Shown: positions 20,703 through 28,443 of the stretch, piece by piece
Layout: each line of letters opens with the position of its first letter
Position numbering within the stretch: the stretch's first letter is position 1
The notes under the pieces: model-generated
Databases searched by the model: none
Seen by the model: only the letters and a program-made list of their open reading frames with translations
Told to the model about the DNA's origin: nothing
Position numbers and translations under genes: made by a program
Virus record (IMG/VR): IMGVR_UViG_3300024520_000359
Coordinates: 1-29,947 of that record
Source: a virus
DNA length: 29,947 bases
Reading direction: 5' to 3' (one strand)

Positions 20703-20840
20703 ATGACTAAGAAAACAAAGAAGAAAGTAAGCAAGAAGGTTGTCGCTGATACAGTGGCAGTTACTCGCAACGGCGACACGGTTAATGTAAAACCTGAAAA
20801 GCTAGAGAGCTTTCTAGCGGCTGGCTGGTTGCGTGGTTGA
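20703..20840 (+). CDS. 45-aa basic protein in the head module
   Basis: A short gene starting just after the terminator. The lysine-rich N-terminus (TKKTKKKVSKKV) is followed by NGDTVNVKPEKLESFLAAGW, a pattern seen in small phage head proteins. It overlaps the minor head gene by 8 bp, suggesting coupling. The 63-aa gene at 23699 has a related layout and may be a paralogue of sorts. Exact role unknown. Confidence 0.6.
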   Translation: MTKKTKKKVSKKVVADTVAVTRNGDTVNVKPEKLESFLAAGWLRG

Positions 20841-21948
20841 AGTTGATAAGCTAGAGGATTTGATAGGTAGACACCAGTTAAATTCTCACAGGTTCGGGAG
20901 CTATGTAAAGAACCGAATTAATAAATTACTAGAAAGGTCTGACGCTAGGTTAACGGCGCAGATCAGCGAATTGCTCGATGGTCTAACGGCTAAAGAGGTG
21001 GAGTTACTTGTTTCGGGTAACTACACAACAAAAAGACTTATTGCGCTAAGGGATAGCTTAAACGAGCTACAGGCGGCGATAAATACATCGGTTCTAAATG
21101 TTTTAGACTCGGACGGTAGAGACTACGCAGGATATGAAGTAAGGCGTGGGGCGCAAGTTGCGTATGCTTCGGGTGTTGACGACATAGGCACTAAGATTAG
21201 CACTTCTCAGGCTTATGCGGCGGCAATGGCTAGACCTATGCAGGGGCGTTTTATCCGTGATTATGTCCGTGATATTTCGGCAAATCATAAGAAAGAGATA
21301 AGGGCTGCGATTACTGAGGGTTATGTTTTAGGCGAGAATCTACAGACGATAATGTCTAGGATTAAAGGCACTACCGCAGCCAAACGCTCTGATGGTTTGC
21401 TGTATAAGCGTAACGGAATGATTGAACGGTTGATAGTTAGAAACTCGCTCACTCACATTTCAGCCGTTGCACAGATGGAAGCGTTCAAACAATTAGAAGT
21501 TGACGAGTATTACTTAAGCACTGTCTTTGATGGGCGCACCTCTAAGATTTGCGCGAGCTTGAACAGTAGCGGTGTCAAGTATTACAAGGTTGGCTCTGGT
21601 TTATTGCCTCCACTACATCCCGGCGGGTGTCGCACTATTGCGCTACCTAAGCCGATGGGTAAGAGCAGCATAGAAAAGCCCTTCATCGCTGACACACGGC
21701 CTCTGAGCAAGATTCCAAAGGCGGATAGGGCGGATGTAATAGGCAAGACTAAAGCGACAAGCTTTGAGGGCTTCTTAAAACGTCAAGACGCTGGCTTTCA
21801 GCGAGAGTGGCTAGGCGAGGCGCGGTATAAGCTCTGGAAGGAGGGGATACCACTAAGCGGCTTTGCAGACCCTAGAAAGGGGCTTGTGTATAACCTAGCT
21901 GAGTTAGAGGCTAAGAATAAAACGGCGTTCACGGCGGCGGGGCTTTAG
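20833..21948 (+). CDS. Mu F-like minor head protein
   Basis: A 371-aa protein of the Mu F / SPP1 gp7 group, injected or internal head proteins bound to the portal. The diagnostic region is in the C-terminal part: DGRTSKICASLNSSG, then GSGLLPPLHPGGCRTIALP (roughly residues 236-276). The N-terminal two thirds are helical. The start is GTG, overlapping the 45-aa gene. Family membership is secure; the exact task in the particle is not. Confidence 0.88.
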   Translation: MVEVDKLEDLIGRHQLNSHRFGSYVKNRINKLLERSDARLTAQISELLDGLTAKEVELLVSGNYTTKRLIALRDSLNELQAAINTSVLNVLDSDGRDYAGYEVRRGAQVAYASGVDDIGTKISTSQAYAAAMARPMQGRFIRDYVRDISANHKKEIRAAITEGYVLGENLQTIMSRIKGTTAAKRSDGLLYKRNGMIERLIVRNSLTHISAVAQMEAFKQLEVDEYYLSTVFDGRTSKICASLNSSGVKYYKVGSGLLPPLHPGGCRTIALPKPMGKSSIEKPFIADTRPLSKIPKADRADVIGKTKATSFEGFLKRQDAGFQREWLGEARYKLWKEGIPLSGFADPRKGLVYNLAELEAKNKTAFTAAGL

Positions 21949-21962
21949 TTTATACTGTCTTA

Positions 21963-22175
21963 ATGGGCGGATTGAAACTAATAGAAGGAGGCGACAAACC
22001 TCGCGTTAAGGACACGCAGGGGCGCGAGCGTATCCAATGCCCTGAATGCGGCAACAGAGCCTTCAATGAGGTTATATTAAATCCTAGCAGGGGTAAAAGC
22101 CTAGACTGGGATAAACGGACAGGGGTTAGGCGGCTGCAATGCGCCAATTCCAAATGTAAAAAGATCGTGACTTAA
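21963..22175 (+). CDS. Small zinc-ribbon protein
   Basis: A 70-aa basic protein with C26-x-x-C29 in CPECG and C60-x4-C65 in CANSKC, a four-cysteine set expected to bind zinc. The spacing of about 30 residues between knuckles fits a zinc ribbon. It lies between head and neck genes and ends just before a terminator. It probably binds nucleic acid or a protein partner. Function unknown. Confidence 0.75.
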   Translation: MGGLKLIEGGDKPRVKDTQGRERIQCPECGNRAFNEVILNPSRGKSLDWDKRTGVRRLQCANSKCKKIVT

Positions 22176-22198
22176 AAAGCGATTAAATGAAATTCAAG

Positions 22199-22222
22199 AG
22201 ACTGCTTCGGCGGTCTTTTTTT
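22199..22222 (+). terminator. Terminator with a TTCG loop
   Basis: AGACTGC-TTCG-GCGGTCT forms a 7-bp stem (one G-U) with a UUCG loop and a run of seven T. It lies inside the late operon between the zinc-ribbon gene and the connector gene, so it may divide head from neck and tail expression unless overridden. Confidence 0.88.
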
Positions 22223-22236
22223 ATGGGTGATAGAGA

Positions 22237-22704
22237 ATGGCTTTAGTAATCGAATTAGGCGCACCGACCACAGGGGCTAATACCTATGTAACGGTTGCGG
22301 AGTTTGACACCTATTTGACCGACAGGGGTTATACGGTAACGGCTGACAAAGAGCCTTTGCTTATCAAGACGTTTGATTTTATGCAGACGTTGGACTGGTT
22401 AGAGGATAACTCGTTTTATCGAAACTCTTTTGGGTGGTTCGACCCTCGCATTAAGTACGCATACACAATCTATCCGGCGCATAAGAACGGACAGTGTGAG
22501 ATAGCGTACAGAATGAGTTTAGGTGTTGACCCAGGCGCAGAGCCAGACCAATTAGTGAAGCGTGAGAAAGTTGACGTTTTAGAGACTGAATACTTTGGCG
22601 GTAACTCTAAAGGCTCGGCTATTAGTTTACTTCTATCAATGCCAATCGCTTACGGAATACTCAAAGATCATTTAGTAACTAGCCCTTATTTACAACGCGC
22701 ATGA
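22237..22704 (+). CDS. Head-tail connector/adaptor protein
   Basis: A 155-aa protein starting ELGAPTTGANTYVTVAEFDT, then YLTDRGY, the typical N-terminus of phage adaptor proteins (often annotated as DnaT-like). It has aromatic helices around residues 48-80. GGGTGA precedes ATG. It is the first of four connector genes (22237-23702) linked by 4-31 bp overlaps between the capsid and tail-tube genes. It probably docks under the portal. Confidence 0.75.
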   Translation: MALVIELGAPTTGANTYVTVAEFDTYLTDRGYTVTADKEPLLIKTFDFMQTLDWLEDNSFYRNSFGWFDPRIKYAYTIYPAHKNGQCEIAYRMSLGVDPGAEPDQLVKREKVDVLETEYFGGNSKGSAISLLLSMPIAYGILKDHLVTSPYLQRA

Positions 22705-23036
22705 ATGAGAGAGAGATAGCCTCTGCGACTAGACTAATTGCGGCAAAAGGTCGTGACATATCCCTAGTTTCTCTAACGCCTTCAGGCGATGCGTGGAATC
22801 CAACAAACAGCGAATCATCACAGACAGTTAAGGCGGTGCAAACTGGCTTTACTAATGCGGAAGTTTCAAGCGGTTTAGTTGAATTAACAGATGTTAAATA
22901 CTTAGTTGATGCGGTAGTAGAACCTACTACATCAATGCGGATAGTTGATGATTCTAAGACGTATTCGATTAAAGCAGTTATGGCGGTTAAGCCCGGTGAG
23001 AGTGTCATTTTATACAAGGTGATAGCAGGTGGCTAA
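22701..23036 (+). CDS. Head closure (stopper) protein
   Basis: A 111-aa beta-rich protein. FTNAEVSSGLVELTDVKYLV is followed by a strand-rich end typical of head-closure proteins, which gate DNA release at the neck. Its start overlaps the previous stop by ATGA and it overlaps the next gene. The call rests on order and secondary-structure pattern. Confidence 0.65.
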   Translation: MNEREIASATRLIAAKGRDISLVSLTPSGDAWNPTNSESSQTVKAVQTGFTNAEVSSGLVELTDVKYLVDAVVEPTTSMRIVDDSKTYSIKAVMAVKPGESVILYKVIAGG

Positions 23037-23322
23037 TTTAAACGCATTGATTAAAAAATATAAGGGTAAGCATTCGGCTATTCATAAGGGCGCTTGTCTT
23101 GAGCTAAACACTCGAATCACTGAGTCTACGCCAGTTGACACAGGCAGAGCGCGTCAATCGTGGTCTCCTCAAGGGTCACTAAGAATAGGCGAACCTTATC
23201 AATTCTCTAGCGGGTTGTCTTACATCAGGCCACTAGAGTACGGTCATTCACAGCAAGCGCCCACTGGAATGTTGAGAATAAATATTCGTAATTGGGGCGA
23301 CATTGTGCGGGGTCAGGTATGA
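23029..23322 (+). CDS. HK97 gp10-like neck/tail-completion protein
   Basis: A 97-aa protein with a GTG start. The block TPVDTGRARQSW (about 35-46) followed by YIRPLEYGHSQQAPTGMLR is the well-known signature of the HK97 gp10 group, which joins head and tail. It overlaps the preceding gene by 8 bp and the next by 4 bp (ATGA). Confidence 0.85.
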   Translation: MANLNALIKKYKGKHSAIHKGACLELNTRITESTPVDTGRARQSWSPQGSLRIGEPYQFSSGLSYIRPLEYGHSQQAPTGMLRINIRNWGDIVRGQV

Positions 23323-23702
23323 GCTTTGTTGCGGCGAATGATGCGTTAAATACCGCAATAGCGGCGCTTGGTTATCCAGTGGCGTGGCCTAACGTGGTTT
23401 TCAATCCTACCGTTAACCATCTGCGCGTTAATGTCTTAGGGTCGCGTTCAGAGCTTCACACATTCGGACTAGATCGAATCCCTGCAACGCTACAAATTGA
23501 TTGTGTAGTTAAAGAGGGCGATGGAGCTAATGTGGCGGCGGCAATGGCTGACGTAATACAGGCGGCGTTTAGTCGCGGCGATACGTTCACAGAGGCGGGT
23601 ACTACGGTTCGAGTAGATAGAGAGCCTTATACAAGCACAGGGATAATTTCAAACGGCTGGTACTCGTTACCAGTTTCAATACCTATTGAGAGGTACAAAT
23701 GA
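23319..23702 (+). CDS. Tail terminator protein
   Basis: I start at the ATG at 23319, which overlaps the previous stop as ATGA and has CAGG upstream, rather than at an earlier in-frame codon at 23292. The 127-aa product (for example WPNVVFNPTVNHLRVNVLGS, then RIPATLQIDCVV and a final PVSIPIERY) has the alternating strands of phage tail terminators, which cap the tube at the head side. Order between the gp10-like and tube genes agrees. Confidence 0.75.
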   Translation: MSFVAANDALNTAIAALGYPVAWPNVVFNPTVNHLRVNVLGSRSELHTFGLDRIPATLQIDCVVKEGDGANVAAAMADVIQAAFSRGDTFTEAGTTVRVDREPYTSTGIISNGWYSLPVSIPIERYK

Positions 23703-23890
23703 GCAACAAAGTAAAGATTTATAAGGGCGATTTAGTAAACGCTATTTATCCGTGTGAGCTAGATGGTTATAAAAAGAACGGATGGAGTGACAAACCTGTC
23801 GCGCCAGAAGTAAAGCAAGACGCAGAGGTCGGCGACCCGGCAGAAGCGAAACACATTAAACCAGAAACAAAATTTAAACGAGGCAAATAA
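23699..23890 (+). CDS. 63-aa basic protein before the tail tube gene
   Basis: A small soluble protein, coupled at both ends (ATGA upstream, overlap with the tube gene downstream). The N-terminal part KIYKGDLVNAIYPCELDGYK, then KNGW, resembles short phage proteins with a C-terminal basic tail (KPETKFKRGK). Similar layout to the 45-aa gene at 20703. Function unknown. Confidence 0.6.
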   Translation: MSNKVKIYKGDLVNAIYPCELDGYKKNGWSDKPVAPEVKQDAEVGDPAEAKHIKPETKFKRGK

Positions 23891-24348
23891 TGGCTACTAA
23901 TATTTTATCGGGCGCAATCTTTAGCGTAAGTGCTGGCACACCAGCAACACAAGACGAAGCGGGTTATGAGGCTTTGACTTTCACGGCCCTAACATCGGCT
24001 GAAATTATGGATTTTTCAGGGTGGGATGATTCATGGGAGACTCGCACTGATGATTCTTATTCTACATCACCTGTGGGCTCTAAGAAGATTCGTAAGGCTT
24101 TCGGTGATGTTACTTTAACGCTGAAATACGACAAAACAAACACGGCTTTCTACGGAATTATAAACACAGCTTACGATTCGCAAACTGATTTGTTAGCGTG
24201 TAAGTTCTTGTCGTCTAACGCTGTGGACAATATCTTTTTTCAAGCTACGGTTATCAAGGCGAACATTAAGGGCGGTTCTGGTTCTGATGAAGAAACTTTC
24301 GAGCTAGTTCTAGCGCCACAAACTGAAACTGTTGCAGGAACTGAGTAA
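23890..24348 (+). CDS. Major tail tube protein
   Basis: A 152-aa beta-rich protein that would stack as hexamers to form the tail tube. Segments FSGWDDSWETRTDDSYSTSP and KAFGDVTLTLKYDKTN (about 40-80) match the typical tube-subunit pattern, followed by FELVLAPQTETV. Its place before the frameshifted chaperones and tape measure is diagnostic. It overlaps the next gene by one base (TAATG). Confidence 0.85.
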   Translation: MATNILSGAIFSVSAGTPATQDEAGYEALTFTALTSAEIMDFSGWDDSWETRTDDSYSTSPVGSKKIRKAFGDVTLTLKYDKTNTAFYGIINTAYDSQTDLLACKFLSSNAVDNIFFQATVIKANIKGGSGSDEETFELVLAPQTETVAGTE

Positions 24349-24776
24349 TGGCTGACTTAAGTAACTTAAAAGTTATTGAAGAGTCGCAAGCTTTAGAGCT
24401 TCTTGATCCATATACGGATGAGAAGCTTCTAAACGATGAAGGAAAGCCGATGGTCATTTATTTATTCGGTGGCGAAACAAAGCTTTCTAAGTCGGTAGAG
24501 CTTGAACTATCTCGCGGCGACAAGGCGGGTAAGAAAATCAGTGATGTGGAAATGGAGCGCAGACTCTATAAAAAGCTTGCTCGATTAACTGACCGCTTTG
24601 ATGGTGTGCAGATGAACGGCGAAATGCTGGTTAATGATTTTGACACAGCGTTTAACCTTTACAAAGACTACCCATTTCTAGCGGTTCAAGCGGCCCAATT
24701 CATATCTGACCGTACCCATTTTTTGGGAAACTCGCAAAAGACCTCGCAAGCTATCTCGCAGTTAGCATCTGGCTAG
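24348..24776 (+). CDS. Tail assembly chaperone, short form (gpG-like)
   Basis: A 142-aa helical protein made by normal decoding. It should bind the tape measure protein during tail building. The slippery heptamer GGGAAAC lies in the last 16 codons at 24725-24731. Ribosomes that do not slip end at 24776 after NSQKTSQAISQLASG. Order between tube and tape measure genes is that of lambda gpG. Confidence 0.85.
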   Translation: MADLSNLKVIEESQALELLDPYTDEKLLNDEGKPMVIYLFGGETKLSKSVELELSRGDKAGKKISDVEMERRLYKKLARLTDRFDGVQMNGEMLVNDFDTAFNLYKDYPFLAVQAAQFISDRTHFLGNSQKTSQAISQLASG

Positions 24777-25126
24777 CGGCAATCCCTGAGGGGGGTAATG
24801 AGCCAAGAAGTTCAAAGTATAAATTAGATACGCCTGATGTTTCAGAGGGTGAGTATTTATTGAAAGCCTTAAACGAAATTGGCTTGTTTACCTCTAGCGG
24901 TGGGCAGTTTGTAGGTCATACGTTCCAAGAATTGAGGGCGTATCAAGAGGCTATGGGTATCGCCTTCGATCCCTGGGAGTCCAACACTTTAACTATGTTG
25001 TCGCGCACTGCGGCTCACTGGACAAATGTGTCCAGACGAAAAGACGCACCAAATCCGCTAGGCAACACAGCCGAGGAAATGGAAGCGAAAATCAAACGTA
25101 TAGATGATCTGATATTTAAAAAATGA
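24348..25126 (+). CDS. Tail assembly chaperone, frameshifted long form (gpGT-like)
   Basis: A -1 shift at GGGAAAC (24725-24731) joins the first 128 codons to the overlapping frame, which is open from there to the TGA at 25124-25126, giving a product of about 259 aa. The second part has no good start of its own: the region 24777-24859 has only a TTG at 24860. Its N-terminal residues after the slip read LAKDLASYLAVSIWLAAIPE. The stop overlaps the tape measure start (ATGA). The arrangement mirrors lambda G/GT, where a few per cent of ribosomes shift. Confidence 0.85.
24725..24731 (+). promoter_or_regulatory. -1 programmed frameshift site
   Basis: The heptamer is in the required phase, G GGA AAC, so both tRNAs can re-pair on GGG AAA after a one-base backward slip. 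A run of six T immediately precedes it. This is a classical XXXYYYZ slippery site, close to lambda's GGGAAAG. A downstream stimulatory structure is not obvious. Confidence 0.88.
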
Positions 25127-28100
25127 GCGACATTGCACAACTTGGTTATAGGGTAGACACTAGCGGTCTAGTCAAAGGTGAAAAAGCCCTAAACCGTATG
25201 GGTGCGGCTGGCGATAAGGCAGAAAAAGGCTCGAAGCGACTCTATGCTAGTTTCTCAAAGTTAGCTGTACCTGTAGCTGCGCTTAGTGCGGCCATTGGTG
25301 GCGCAATACTACCATTCGCTAAGTATCAAACTGCGTTAGCTGAAGTTAATACACTTCTAGGCGCAGATCAGAATATCAATGATTATTCTAAATCTATCCG
25401 TGAATTATCCAAGCAATTCGGCACTGATCAGAGCGCACAGGCTAAGGCTTTTTACAATGTAATCTCGGCGGGTGCGTCTAGCGCGGCTGAGGCGACCAGC
25501 ATAATGGCTTCGGCTAATAAGCTGGCGTTAGGCGGCGTGACTGACATTGCAACGGCCTCGGATGGTTTAACTAGCGTATTGAATGCGTACAGCTTAGACG
25601 CATCCGAGGCTGGCAAGGTTTCGGACATTCTTTTCGCCACAATGAAAAGCGGCAAGACTACCGTAGGCGAATTGTCTGGATCACTTGGTAAAGTTGCCCC
25701 CATAGCCTCACAGGTGGGCGTAGGGCTAGACGAATTAAACGCTGCAATAGCGACCATTACTAAGGGCGGTGTCTCGACTGTAGAGGCTGTCACTCAAGTA
25801 AAGGCGGCGCTATCAAATGTATTAAAACCCTCCAAAGAAGCGGCAGACCTAGCCGCAGATTTAGGCATTAACTTTTCAGTAGCCGGACTAAAGGCGCAAG
25901 GCTTCTCAGGCTTCATTCAAGAGGTAGCAACCAAGACAGGCGGAAGCGAGGAGCAGCTAGCCAAGCTATTCGGGAGTATTGAGGCTGTCCAGGCGATCAT
26001 GCCTCTAGCGGGTGCTAAAGCTGGCGACTTTGCCAACATCCTAGATCTAGTTAAAAACAGCGCGGGGTCTACCGATGAAGCTGTCGCTATTATGTCTGAC
26101 ACCCTCACGGTTAAGTTCAACAAAGCAATGGCAAGCCTTAAAGATATGGCTTTGACTATTGGCGATGCGCTTAGCCCTGCAATAACCTTCCTTGTCGATT
26201 CCTTTCAATTTCTTTTAGATGTTCTATCCCCTGTTGTCACCGTTCTAGGTACAGCACTCAAGGGCATTCAACTCTTAGCCGTTGGCGCGTTTGACCTTTC
26301 TGTTGCTTTTGCTGACAGCCTTATTGGTTCAGTTGTTGGCTTCTTTGACGTTCTAACTAATAACGCAGTTTCTGACGCTATTGGATGGTTTAAAGACTTA
26401 GCGGGGGTTGTAGGCAACGAATTAAGTTTCGCCTTTAATAACTCTAGGCTGGTTGGCATCGCAATGGTTCGCGGTGTGCTTGTCTCTATCGAAAAACTAA
26501 AGTATGGCTTTGGCGTATCTGCGGCATTTATAAAAATGTCCTTTGTTAAATCAATTGACGTTATTCGCAAGCACTTCGCGGGTCTTTTCGAGTCAATAGC
26601 TAAAGGGCTGAGGTTCGCTGGCTTTGATGATATGGCTGACGGTCTTGATGGCGTTATAAAGAACATCAAGGGCGCTCAAACGGCTACCCAAACTTACAAC
26701 GCAAAAATCAAGGCATTAAAAGCCACTAAAGACAATGCGATAAAATCAATCATCACTATTACTGATGAAATGGCAGAGTTTGAGATTGCAACCAAGCAAA
26801 CAACAAAAGCTACAGTTGAGCAGGGGGAGTCTTCAGACGACACGATTGTATCGCAGCTTAAATTAGTAGAAGCAACCAAGCTCACATGGGAAGAGTACAA
26901 AAAGAGCAAGGGCGTTATTGATGGGGTTATTGAAAAAAACGATGACCTAGTTAAAAGCAACAACATCGTTTCTGACGCATGGGAAGATGCAAACCGTAAG
27001 ATTTTCGACTCGATGCAAACCTTCTTTCGTGATGGTTTGGATGGATGGGATAACTTCGGCGATTCGGTCAAAGACATAGTTAAGGACATGATCGCGTCTA
27101 TTCTCGCGCAGATCACGCAATTATTAGTGTCTAACGCTTTCAAAAAAATGATTAGTTTTCTGACAGGAGGCAACAAGTTTGGAGGCACTGGTTTATTCGA
27201 TGGCATAGGCGAGCTATTTGGCGGCAAGTCTGGCGGCGGTGGCTCAGGTGGTGGCGGTTTAGGTTCAATCACAAGTCTTGCAGGCGGCATTAAGTCAGCC
27301 ACTAGCGCAATCGGCGGATGGTTAGGGATGGGTAGCGCGGCAGTCGGCGCGGTAAATGTTGCGGGTTCTGCGGCGGTGGCTTCGTCTATGGCGGCATCGG
27401 CAAGCATGGCGGCATCAATGACAAGCTTGGGGGCTGGAGCGGCGGGTGCTGGCTCTGCTGGAACGGTTGCTTTCGGCGGTCATTTGGGCGGTGGAGGGAT
27501 AAGTTCGGCTATTGGTGCGATTCCTGGTTGGGGATGGGCGGCATTAGCGGCGGCTGCTGTGTTGGCTATTGGAAGCGGCGCAAGAACACCACAAGAGCTA
27601 GGCGAAGATCAGCTTCAGGCGGTTGATGACGCGACTAAGGCGGGGCGCAATACTCAGGTGCAACTAGGATCGGTTGGCGGTGTAGCTACCAGCTTTCTAG
27701 GCGGCTTTGATGAAAACTCTACATTTTTTGGTGTCGATTTACTCAAAGACGAATTACAAAAAGTTGGTGACGTTCTAAAGAATAAGTTTGGTTTTGACCA
27801 AGCTCTAGCACTTAAGGATGGAGTCATTAGATTGGAAGATTTCAGCCGTGAATTTAGCGAAAACAACGAGGAGATAGTCGCAGAGGTTCAAGCCTCTATC
27901 CTTATCGCTAAACACGCCTTTGATGATGCTGAGTTAGCTAAGGTTAAATCTTTGGGTAAGTCTGTTGTCGCAATGGATCGGCTCTATGATCAATCTGCGG
28001 ATAGCGGTAAATCTGCGGCTGACAGGCTTAAAGAGGCGTACATGGGCGCGTTTGGTGCGTCTGAGGATGCGGCTACAACTGCCCTAGCTAATATGGGGCT

Positions 28101-28443
28101 AGAGACTGAGCGACTTGCTCAAATATTCGACTCATCAAGCAACGAGATACTAGCCACATTAACAGGCGTGGCTACTGATGGCTTAGGGCTATTCGGTCAA
28201 AGTATCTCTGAGATGGGCGATCAAGCACAAACAACGCTAACTTCAATCGAAGATAGGATTAACGGCGTATCTGTAGCGGCTCAGAATAGCGCGGGTCAGG
28301 TTGTTAATGCCTACGATGGGGCTTATGACAGAGTGCAAGGATTAGATGACGCTTTCTCAAGAAGGCTACTCCAAAAATTAGACCAGATCACGGATAACTC
28401 TAGTGTTACTCGTGGTAACAGCCAGCCACTAGCGGGTATTTAG
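25123..28443 (+). CDS. Tail tape measure protein
   Basis: A 1106-aa protein that sets tail length and probably helps DNA pass the membrane. The N-terminal 340 residues hold the TP901-type core (for example EVNTLLGADQNINDYSKSI and VGELSGSLGKVAPIASQVGV). Hydrophobic segments lie around 360-420 and 790-822. A Gly/Ala/Ser-rich stretch (about 700-790) and a helical C-terminus complete it. At roughly 1.5 angstrom per residue, helix packing would give a tail of about 160 nm, a family rule of thumb rather than a measurement. It overlaps the chaperone stop. Confidence 0.92.
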   Translation: MSDIAQLGYRVDTSGLVKGEKALNRMGAAGDKAEKGSKRLYASFSKLAVPVAALSAAIGGAILPFAKYQTALAEVNTLLGADQNINDYSKSIRELSKQFGTDQSAQAKAFYNVISAGASSAAEATSIMASANKLALGGVTDIATASDGLTSVLNAYSLDASEAGKVSDILFATMKSGKTTVGELSGSLGKVAPIASQVGVGLDELNAAIATITKGGVSTVEAVTQVKAALSNVLKPSKEAADLAADLGINFSVAGLKAQGFSGFIQEVATKTGGSEEQLAKLFGSIEAVQAIMPLAGAKAGDFANILDLVKNSAGSTDEAVAIMSDTLTVKFNKAMASLKDMALTIGDALSPAITFLVDSFQFLLDVLSPVVTVLGTALKGIQLLAVGAFDLSVAFADSLIGSVVGFFDVLTNNAVSDAIGWFKDLAGVVGNELSFAFNNSRLVGIAMVRGVLVSIEKLKYGFGVSAAFIKMSFVKSIDVIRKHFAGLFESIAKGLRFAGFDDMADGLDGVIKNIKGAQTATQTYNAKIKALKATKDNAIKSIITITDEMAEFEIATKQTTKATVEQGESSDDTIVSQLKLVEATKLTWEEYKKSKGVIDGVIEKNDDLVKSNNIVSDAWEDANRKIFDSMQTFFRDGLDGWDNFGDSVKDIVKDMIASILAQITQLLVSNAFKKMISFLTGGNKFGGTGLFDGIGELFGGKSGGGGSGGGGLGSITSLAGGIKSATSAIGGWLGMGSAAVGAVNVAGSAAVASSMAASASMAASMTSLGAGAAGAGSAGTVAFGGHLGGGGISSAIGAIPGWGWAALAAAAVLAIGSGARTPQELGEDQLQAVDDATKAGRNTQVQLGSVGGVATSFLGGFDENSTFFGVDLLKDELQKVGDVLKNKFGFDQALALKDGVIRLEDFSREFSENNEEIVAEVQASILIAKHAFDDAELAKVKSLGKSVVAMDRLYDQSADSGKSAADRLKEAYMGAFGASEDAATTALANMGLETERLAQIFDSSSNEILATLTGVATDGLGLFGQSISEMGDQAQTTLTSIEDRINGVSVAAQNSAGQVVNAYDGAYDRVQGLDDAFSRRLLQKLDQITDNSSVTRGNSQPLAGI

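Follow-up and report, generated by a model that had tools for sequence, protein, structure and literature searches.

A Predicted Programmed −1 Frameshift at a Tandem Slip Site in a Phage Tail Assembly Chaperone Gene

The window analyzed here, which is the whole stretch of a metagenome-derived IMG/VR virus record (29,947 bases), is predicted, with a probability of roughly 0.94, to carry a programmed −1 frameshift in the G/G-T-type tail assembly chaperone gene of a long-tailed phage. The shifting itself is very likely, as judged from conservation among relatives. Frameshifted tail chaperones were first described long ago in lambda and are widespread in long-tailed phages; the locus is an ordinary, well-supported example of this lambda G/G-T kind, and its sole feature beyond routine interest is a tandem slip site, which is also found with AAG in one distant relative (L038).

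Locus, Reading Frames and Gene Neighborhood

The chaperone locus is set in an ordinary head-tail module, in which genes for the terminase subunits, portal, scaffold, major head protein, head morphogenesis protein, adaptor, head closure, neck protein and tail terminator all lie 5′ of the chaperone. From the terminator onward, the order is terminator, small ORF, probable major tail protein, chaperone ORF1/ORF2 and tape measure, with the following coordinates:

23292–23702, + strand: tail terminator (Pfam PF13554, E 1e-19)
23890–24348, + strand: probable major tail protein, assigned only by its position 3′ of the tail terminator and 5′ of the chaperone gene
24348–24776, + strand: ORF1, G-like tail assembly chaperone (ATG at 24348, TAG at 24774–24776; 142 aa unshifted)
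24710–25126, + strand: ORF2, open stretch in the −1 frame (TGA stop at 25124–25126)
24860–25126, + strand: shorter ORF of 88 aa from a TTG, which an ordinary gene caller would list instead of ORF2
25123–28443, + strand: tail length tape measure protein, 1106 aa (PHROG 991, E 1e-65; Pfam PhageMin_Tail, E 5e-31)

As with lambda G/G-T, the pair is placed directly 5′ of the tape measure gene and 3′ of the tail terminator. The ORF at 23890–24348 has no family match in PHROGs or Pfam. The ATG of ORF1 shares bases with the stop of the preceding ORF (TAATG), and the stop of ORF2 overlaps the tape measure start (ATGA). ORF2 would be used from about 24731, as the T-like C-terminal domain of a fusion with ORF1 of about 259 aa. 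The first-pass annotation of this DNA had described the second frame as open for 131 codons and as lacking a good start codon. The open length is exactly that, counted from 24731 to the TGA at 25124–25126; the absence of a start stands for everything before TTG 24860, the first ATG, GTG or TTG in the −1 frame, but is qualified by a GAGGG at 24845–24849, which lies 10 nt 5′ of that TTG.

A near-identical contig (IMGVR_UViG_3300024518_002080, L001) differs from the window by one mismatch over 20731–27263. After 27263, the two differ inside the tape measure gene, with about 218 bases in the window (27264–27481) against 107 in the contig, and beyond this stretch their identity is 96%; the contig is, as aligned, a length variant of the tape measure relative to the window.

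Protein Identity of ORF1 and ORF2

The AlphaFold2 model of ORF1 (pLDDT 89.5) matches several named tape-measure or tail chaperones in BFVD (E 2e-5 to 1e-3, TMq 0.56–0.68), including those of Caulobacter phages Sansa and CcrColossus and of Escherichia phage Seurat, and the matches come in short (161 aa) and long (310, 268 and 268 aa) forms. Among solved structures, VIA-align places the HK97 tail assembly chaperone (2OB9) and YqbN (3KLU) at the top, both with Z 5.1, a middling score by itself, followed by a next row at Z 3.4. Neither the Foldseek search of the ORF1 model nor the structure search of the ORF2 model against the PDB returns a match at E ≤ 0.001. On the strength of its model, ORF1 folds like phage tail or tape-measure chaperones. 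Family profiles point to the same identity through the relatives: phrog_313 ('Tail assembly chaperone') matches 18 of the 33 aligned ORF1s (best E 1e-21), and Pfam PF23812 (Phage_TAC_18) matches 28 of the 33 aligned ORF2s at E ≤ 0.01 (best 2e-19). Individually, the two ORFs of the window fall below the curated thresholds of PHROGs and Pfam, with no phrog_313 match at 0.01 for ORF1 and, for ORF2 against PF23812, an E of 0.09–0.1 and about 13 bits (13.2) against a cut-off of 27.

The Slippery Site

The zero-frame codons around the slip site read CAT TTT TTG GGA AAC TCG. Within them, the 13-mer TTTTTTGGGAAAC is composed of three overlapping X_XXY_YYZ heptamers, each in phase with ORF1:

24719–24725, + strand: T_TTT_TTG, first in-phase heptamer (codons TTT TTG)
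24722–24728, + strand: T_TTG_GGA, in-phase bridging heptamer that links the other two
24725–24731, + strand: G_GGA_AAC, last in-phase heptamer (codons GGA AAC), as reported in the first-pass annotation

T_TTT_TTG starts six bases 5′ of G_GGA_AAC, and ORF1 continues for 14 codons past AAC. The earlier placement of the shift at GGGAAAC, in exact phase with ORF1, is correct as to phase, and GGGAAAC occurs only once on the + strand of the window (24725–24731). As a description of the site it is incomplete, for GGGAAAC is the end of TTTTTTGGGAAAC, and T_TTT_TTG and T_TTG_GGA were missed; altering GGGAAAC alone could leave shifting through T_TTT_TTG.

In-phase heptamers occupy 26 of the 6,814 positions in the long + strand ORFs of the window, three of them at the slip site. 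When the codons of ORF1 are shuffled (20,000 times), at least one in-phase heptamer falls in the overlap with P = 0.12 and at least three with P = 0.0013; because a heptamer in the overlap is not rare among the shuffles (12%), the single-sequence case is only suggestive.

RNA folds, which covered 12 sequences, predict no stimulatory structure downstream of the window's site (z +0.16 over 100 nt; between −0.71 and +0.18 for three other downstream lengths), and a stimulatory hairpin is not claimed, since all four stretches fold no better than shuffles. The folds downstream of the L010 and L038 slip sites are likewise unremarkable, and no Shine-Dalgarno-like stretch is seen just 5′ of the window's slip site. 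The missing structure is weak evidence against a shift, because frameshifting in P2 is reported to occur without a hairpin (PMC3091744). As for the motifs, a further source (PMC4066793) rates G_GGA_AAC as low-efficiency in E. coli, yet very likely used by insertion sequences, and places U_UU.U_UU.G among efficient motifs for the eukaryotic system only, not for E. coli.

Among the 12 sequences, the only fold that stands out is that of L012 (z −4.5, with 0 of 200 shuffles as stable). At L012:414–513, where the slip heptamer is T_TTT_TTC, a strong hairpin with 11 bp arms starts a few bases past the heptamer; it is likely a stimulator there, of a kind absent from the window.

Comparison with Relatives

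Relatives were collected from IMG/VR contigs and named phages by profile and tblastn searches, and the resulting 67 loci were grouped at 80% ORF2 identity into 39 clusters, which at this level of clustering are not fully independent. L058 and L060, which start inside ORF2 and have no ORF1, were left out of the 39-cluster count. Copies were not entered (L001, L002, L009, L103 and L106 for the window's near-identical contig; L059, L061–L071 and other repeats; L094 and L107), and L108 and L109 stand outside the 39 clusters. Among the 107–109 phage records matching ORF2 of relatives, 17 regions were examined. The window's ORF1 as sole query matched no phage record, and ORF1 homology rests on alignments A2 and A6 together with the adjacency of ORF1 to a homologous ORF2; two scans of genome contigs found no relatives in bacterial genomes.

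In all 39 clusters a −1 shift is required to join the two frames; a +1 shift is required in none, and the frames are fused in none. As expected of a lambda-type gene, the second ORF overlaps the first in the −1 frame without a good start of its own, both in the window and in 38 of 38 other clusters. An in-phase X_XXY_YYZ heptamer is found in the overlap in 34 of the 39 clusters, against 2.5 expected from how often such heptamers occur in the remainder of these ORF1s (25 of 4,921 positions, or 0.5% per codon), and the two wrong phases hold heptamers in the overlap in 4 and 3 clusters. This comparison is decisive for the predicted slip site. The original proposal of a programmed −1 frameshift in tail chaperones, and with it the explanation of an otherwise orphan frame at 24777–25126, thereby gains strong support from the relatives.

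The letters of the site vary from cluster to cluster. A_AAT_TTT serves alone in nine clusters, G_GGA_AAC alone in six and T_TTT_TTG alone in six; A_AAT_TTT is joined by T_TTT_TTG in three; T_TTT_TTC and A_AAT_TTC are found in two each; and T_TTT_TTA with T_TTA_AAG, A_AAT_TTA, and C_CCA_AAG are found in one each. The three-heptamer site is present with AAC in two clusters (the window and L010) and with AAG in one (the distant L038, with the sequence TTTTTTGGGAAAG). L010 has the same break and the same 13-mer, TTTTTTGGGAAAC, at 53–57% protein identity to the window (53% for ORF2), and the slip sites of the relatives are no more than a few codons apart. The five clusters without a heptamer (L051, L053, L055, L093 and L095), which include the Listonella/Vibrio phiHSIC group, all have T_TTT in phase at the same place, as read by eye; for a Z_ZZN tetramer of this sort (U_UU.U), shifting in E. 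coli is reported when a strong stimulator is present (PMC4066793).

Several relatives show features of their own. Vibrio phages 381E49-1, P23, vB_VaS_L1, 1.276.O, K67, phiHSIC, F89 g1 and 2.095.A (L050–L057), as well as L109, have a homologous −1 chaperone pair with no X_XXY_YYZ heptamer and with T_TTT in phase followed by A, T_TTT being all that is in phase in L109; the heptamer-less Vibrio phage group is a possible single-tRNA slip family. In Vibrio phage F89 g1 (L056) and L057, an insertion of opposite-strand genes separates the chaperone pair from the tape measure gene, and in the former it includes an HNH endonuclease. In Mannheimia phage 1152AP2 (L108, 1606–2348), gp15 and gp16, annotated as two hypothetical proteins, have a lambda-type in-phase G_GGA_AAG in their overlap.

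Coding Evidence and Alternatives to a Frameshift

Between the window and L010, the 27 codons from the ORF1 stop to TTG 24860 differ 8, 6 and 15 times at codon positions 1, 2 and 3 of the −1 frame, against 6/14/7 and 14/7/6 in the other two frames; by this pattern of differences, the −1 frame before TTG 24860 is under protein-coding constraint. Moreover, the −1 frame is conserved from the slip point onward across the family. In the AlphaFold2 model of ORF2 (pLDDT 94.5), the first helix comprises residues 2–20 and begins at the slip site, and TTG 24860 would begin at residue 48, which is 46 residues past the start of that helix, so that the 88 aa ORF is without the first helix of the modeled domain.

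These observations bear on the reading that no shift occurs and that ribosomes start separately on ORF2 at TTG 24860, through internal or coupled initiation, to make an 88 aa protein. The GAGGG 10 nt 5′ of the TTG speaks for such initiation, as does the practice of the relatives' annotators, who enter the two frames as separate genes; but the protein so made would be missing helix 1, along with a few residues of helix 2, from a domain predicted with confidence, the coding constraint is already present 5′ of the TTG, and the in-phase heptamer is kept in 34 of the 39 clusters, and separate initiation is accordingly very unlikely. Alternatively, given that the record is metagenome-derived, ORF1 and ORF2 might be one gene broken by an indel, through sequencing error or decay. 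The chance of this is next to negligible, as a second IMG/VR contig is identical across the whole ORF1/ORF2 region, L010 preserves break and 13-mer in spite of its divergence, and every cluster is broken at the same place with no fused gene. It is also highly improbable that the slippage is transcriptional and not ribosomal: a homopolymer of six T is present, but a run of this length is short for slippage by a polymerase, and the layout persists in clusters with A_AAT_TTT or G_GGA_AAC, which have no such T run. A programmed ribosomal shift is the preferred reading.

Which Heptamer Would Slip

The position of each slip site was measured as the number of residues from the second slipped codon to a conserved aromatic in ORF2; the anchor pattern for this aromatic was hand-adjusted so that it skips three false anchors (SYL, TYA and HYA), and L035, L099 and L104 have no anchor. 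For TTTTTTG, 10 of 12 clusters, among them the window, have a spacing of 15 residues to the aromatic, and the remaining two have 14; TTTTTTC lies at 15 in both of its clusters, and AAATTTT at 16 in the 10 anchorable of 12. Where G_GGA_AAC is the only heptamer, it lies at 17 in all five anchored clusters, and the sixth (L035) was also at 17 by an earlier count. In the window and L010, G_GGA_AAC lies 13 residues before the aromatic, four codons off the position of the GGGAAAC-only relatives; C_CCA_AAG of L089 is likewise at 13, so slip sites do wander and the position argument is not absolute. By virtue of the shared 15-residue spacing, T_TTT_TTG is the positional homologue of the site of the TTTTTTN-only relatives, and the earlier choice of GGGAAAC as the site loses ground to it. 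Judged from these positions, the window's G_GGA_AAC looks like an addition downstream of T_TTT_TTG; the latter probably ranks at least equal to it as a shift point, and both heptamers may contribute. From the codons, the two fusion products differ by one residue, namely HFLGK-LAKDL after a slip at T_TTT_TTG and HFLGN-LAKDL after a slip at G_GGA_AAC.

That the shift occurs only or almost only at G_GGA_AAC, with the upstream T6 run incidental, is unlikely. This heptamer is in phase in the window, is the sole heptamer in 6 of 39 clusters and is the predicted site in KL1, Colossus and HCTV-1; yet the six GGGAAAC-only clusters place it at 17 residues and not at 13, T_TTT_TTG in the window has the spacing of 15 seen in 10 of 12 TTTTTTG clusters, and TTTTTTG by itself serves a further 6 of 39 clusters. 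The converse, a shift at T_TTT_TTG with GGGAAA incidental, is possible but falls short of probable: the positional homology with the TTTTTTN relatives and the P2 precedent (PMC3091744) are in its favor, and against it GGGAAA(C/G) follows TTTTTTG in the window, L010 and the distant L038, which amounts to 3 of 12 TTTTTTG clusters and at least two lineages, when the rate of in-phase heptamers in the rest of ORF1 is 0.5% per codon. The choice of TTT TTG GGA AAC for F-L-G-N likewise counts against an incidental GGGAAA, with P 0.009 by the window's codon usage, a post hoc figure in which the −1 frame also constrains the bases. It can be put forward, with comparable reserve, that TTTTTTGGGAAAC is a selected two-chance site, whose heptamers, each weak in E. 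coli, would set the chaperone ratio without an RNA structure and would yield two K/N isoforms; if so, two same-phase heptamers six bases apart would give successive ribosomes two tries.

Proposed Mechanism and Significance

Under the preferred −1 frameshift, most ribosomes would read ORF1 through to the stop at 24774 and release the 142 aa chaperone, and a minority would slip one base back within TTT TTG GGA AAC and go on in the −1 frame to 25126, thereby producing a fusion of about 259 aa with the ORF2 domain at its C-terminus. In re-pairing at T_TTT_TTG, TTT would stay on TTT and TTG would move to TTT; ribosomes that have passed this heptamer could re-pair at G_GGA_AAC, with GGA moving to GGG and AAC to AAA. 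In lambda, gpG attaches to the tape measure and the T domain of gpGT to the major tail subunit, and both proteins leave (PMC5009743). By analogy, the ORF1 protein would coat the tape measure and the rare fusion would bring the major tail subunits. The frames, the phase, the conserved layout and in-phase slippery sequence, and the chaperone families and fold are observed; the occurrence of the shift, its rate, the heptamer used and the division of labor are what we infer.

The analysis supplies a correct gene model for a chaperone that gene callers split; in the relatives examined, annotation either gives the second half a late start and lists it as a short protein of its own or omits it. Across the family, the slip site retains its position to within a few codons but varies in sequence (AAATTTT, TTTTTTC/G/A, GGGAAAC/G, CCCAAAG or a bare TTTT), a pattern that helps in searches for genes of this type. 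Should both of the window's heptamers be functional, the site would also be a compact experiment of nature on whether the effects of weak slip sites in succession are additive.

Comparison with Known Systems

The E/E+E′ pair of P2 shares with the window its first heptamer, TTTTTTG (PMC3091744); P2 differs in being a myophage, and the window's site runs on into a second heptamer. GGGAAAC is the predicted slip site of Burkholderia phage KL1, Caulobacter phage CcrColossus and HCTV-1. KL1 is similar in its product sizes, with gp18 of 142 aa and gp19 of 264 aa against 142 and about 259 aa here, but in KL1 a further gene separates chaperone from tape measure, and the ORF1 stop follows immediately on the slip site, whereas ORF1 of the window runs 14 codons past AAC. 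In CcrColossus, the pre-tape-measure chaperone (268 aa) is itself a structural match of the ORF1 model.

Unannotated homologues with the same layout and a homologous ORF2 are found in Vibrio phages phiHSIC, 230E39-1, K67 and others, and also in Salicola phage CGphi29, Acinetobacter phages Effie and MD-2021a, and Mannheimia phage 1152AP2. These differ from the window in their slip sequences (A_AAT_TTT, T_TTT_TTC or G_GGA_AAG, and only T_TTT in the phiHSIC group). Finally, lambda gpG/gpG-T resembles the locus in adjoining the tape measure gene, in its two overlapping frames, and in a −1 shift near the end of the first frame that gives a G-like protein and a longer fusion. Genes of the lambda type are characterized by a fusion made at a few per cent and by two products that tail assembly requires but virions lack. 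The slip sequence is G_GGA_AAG in lambda against TTTTTTGGGAAAC in the window, and the likeness is one of layout.
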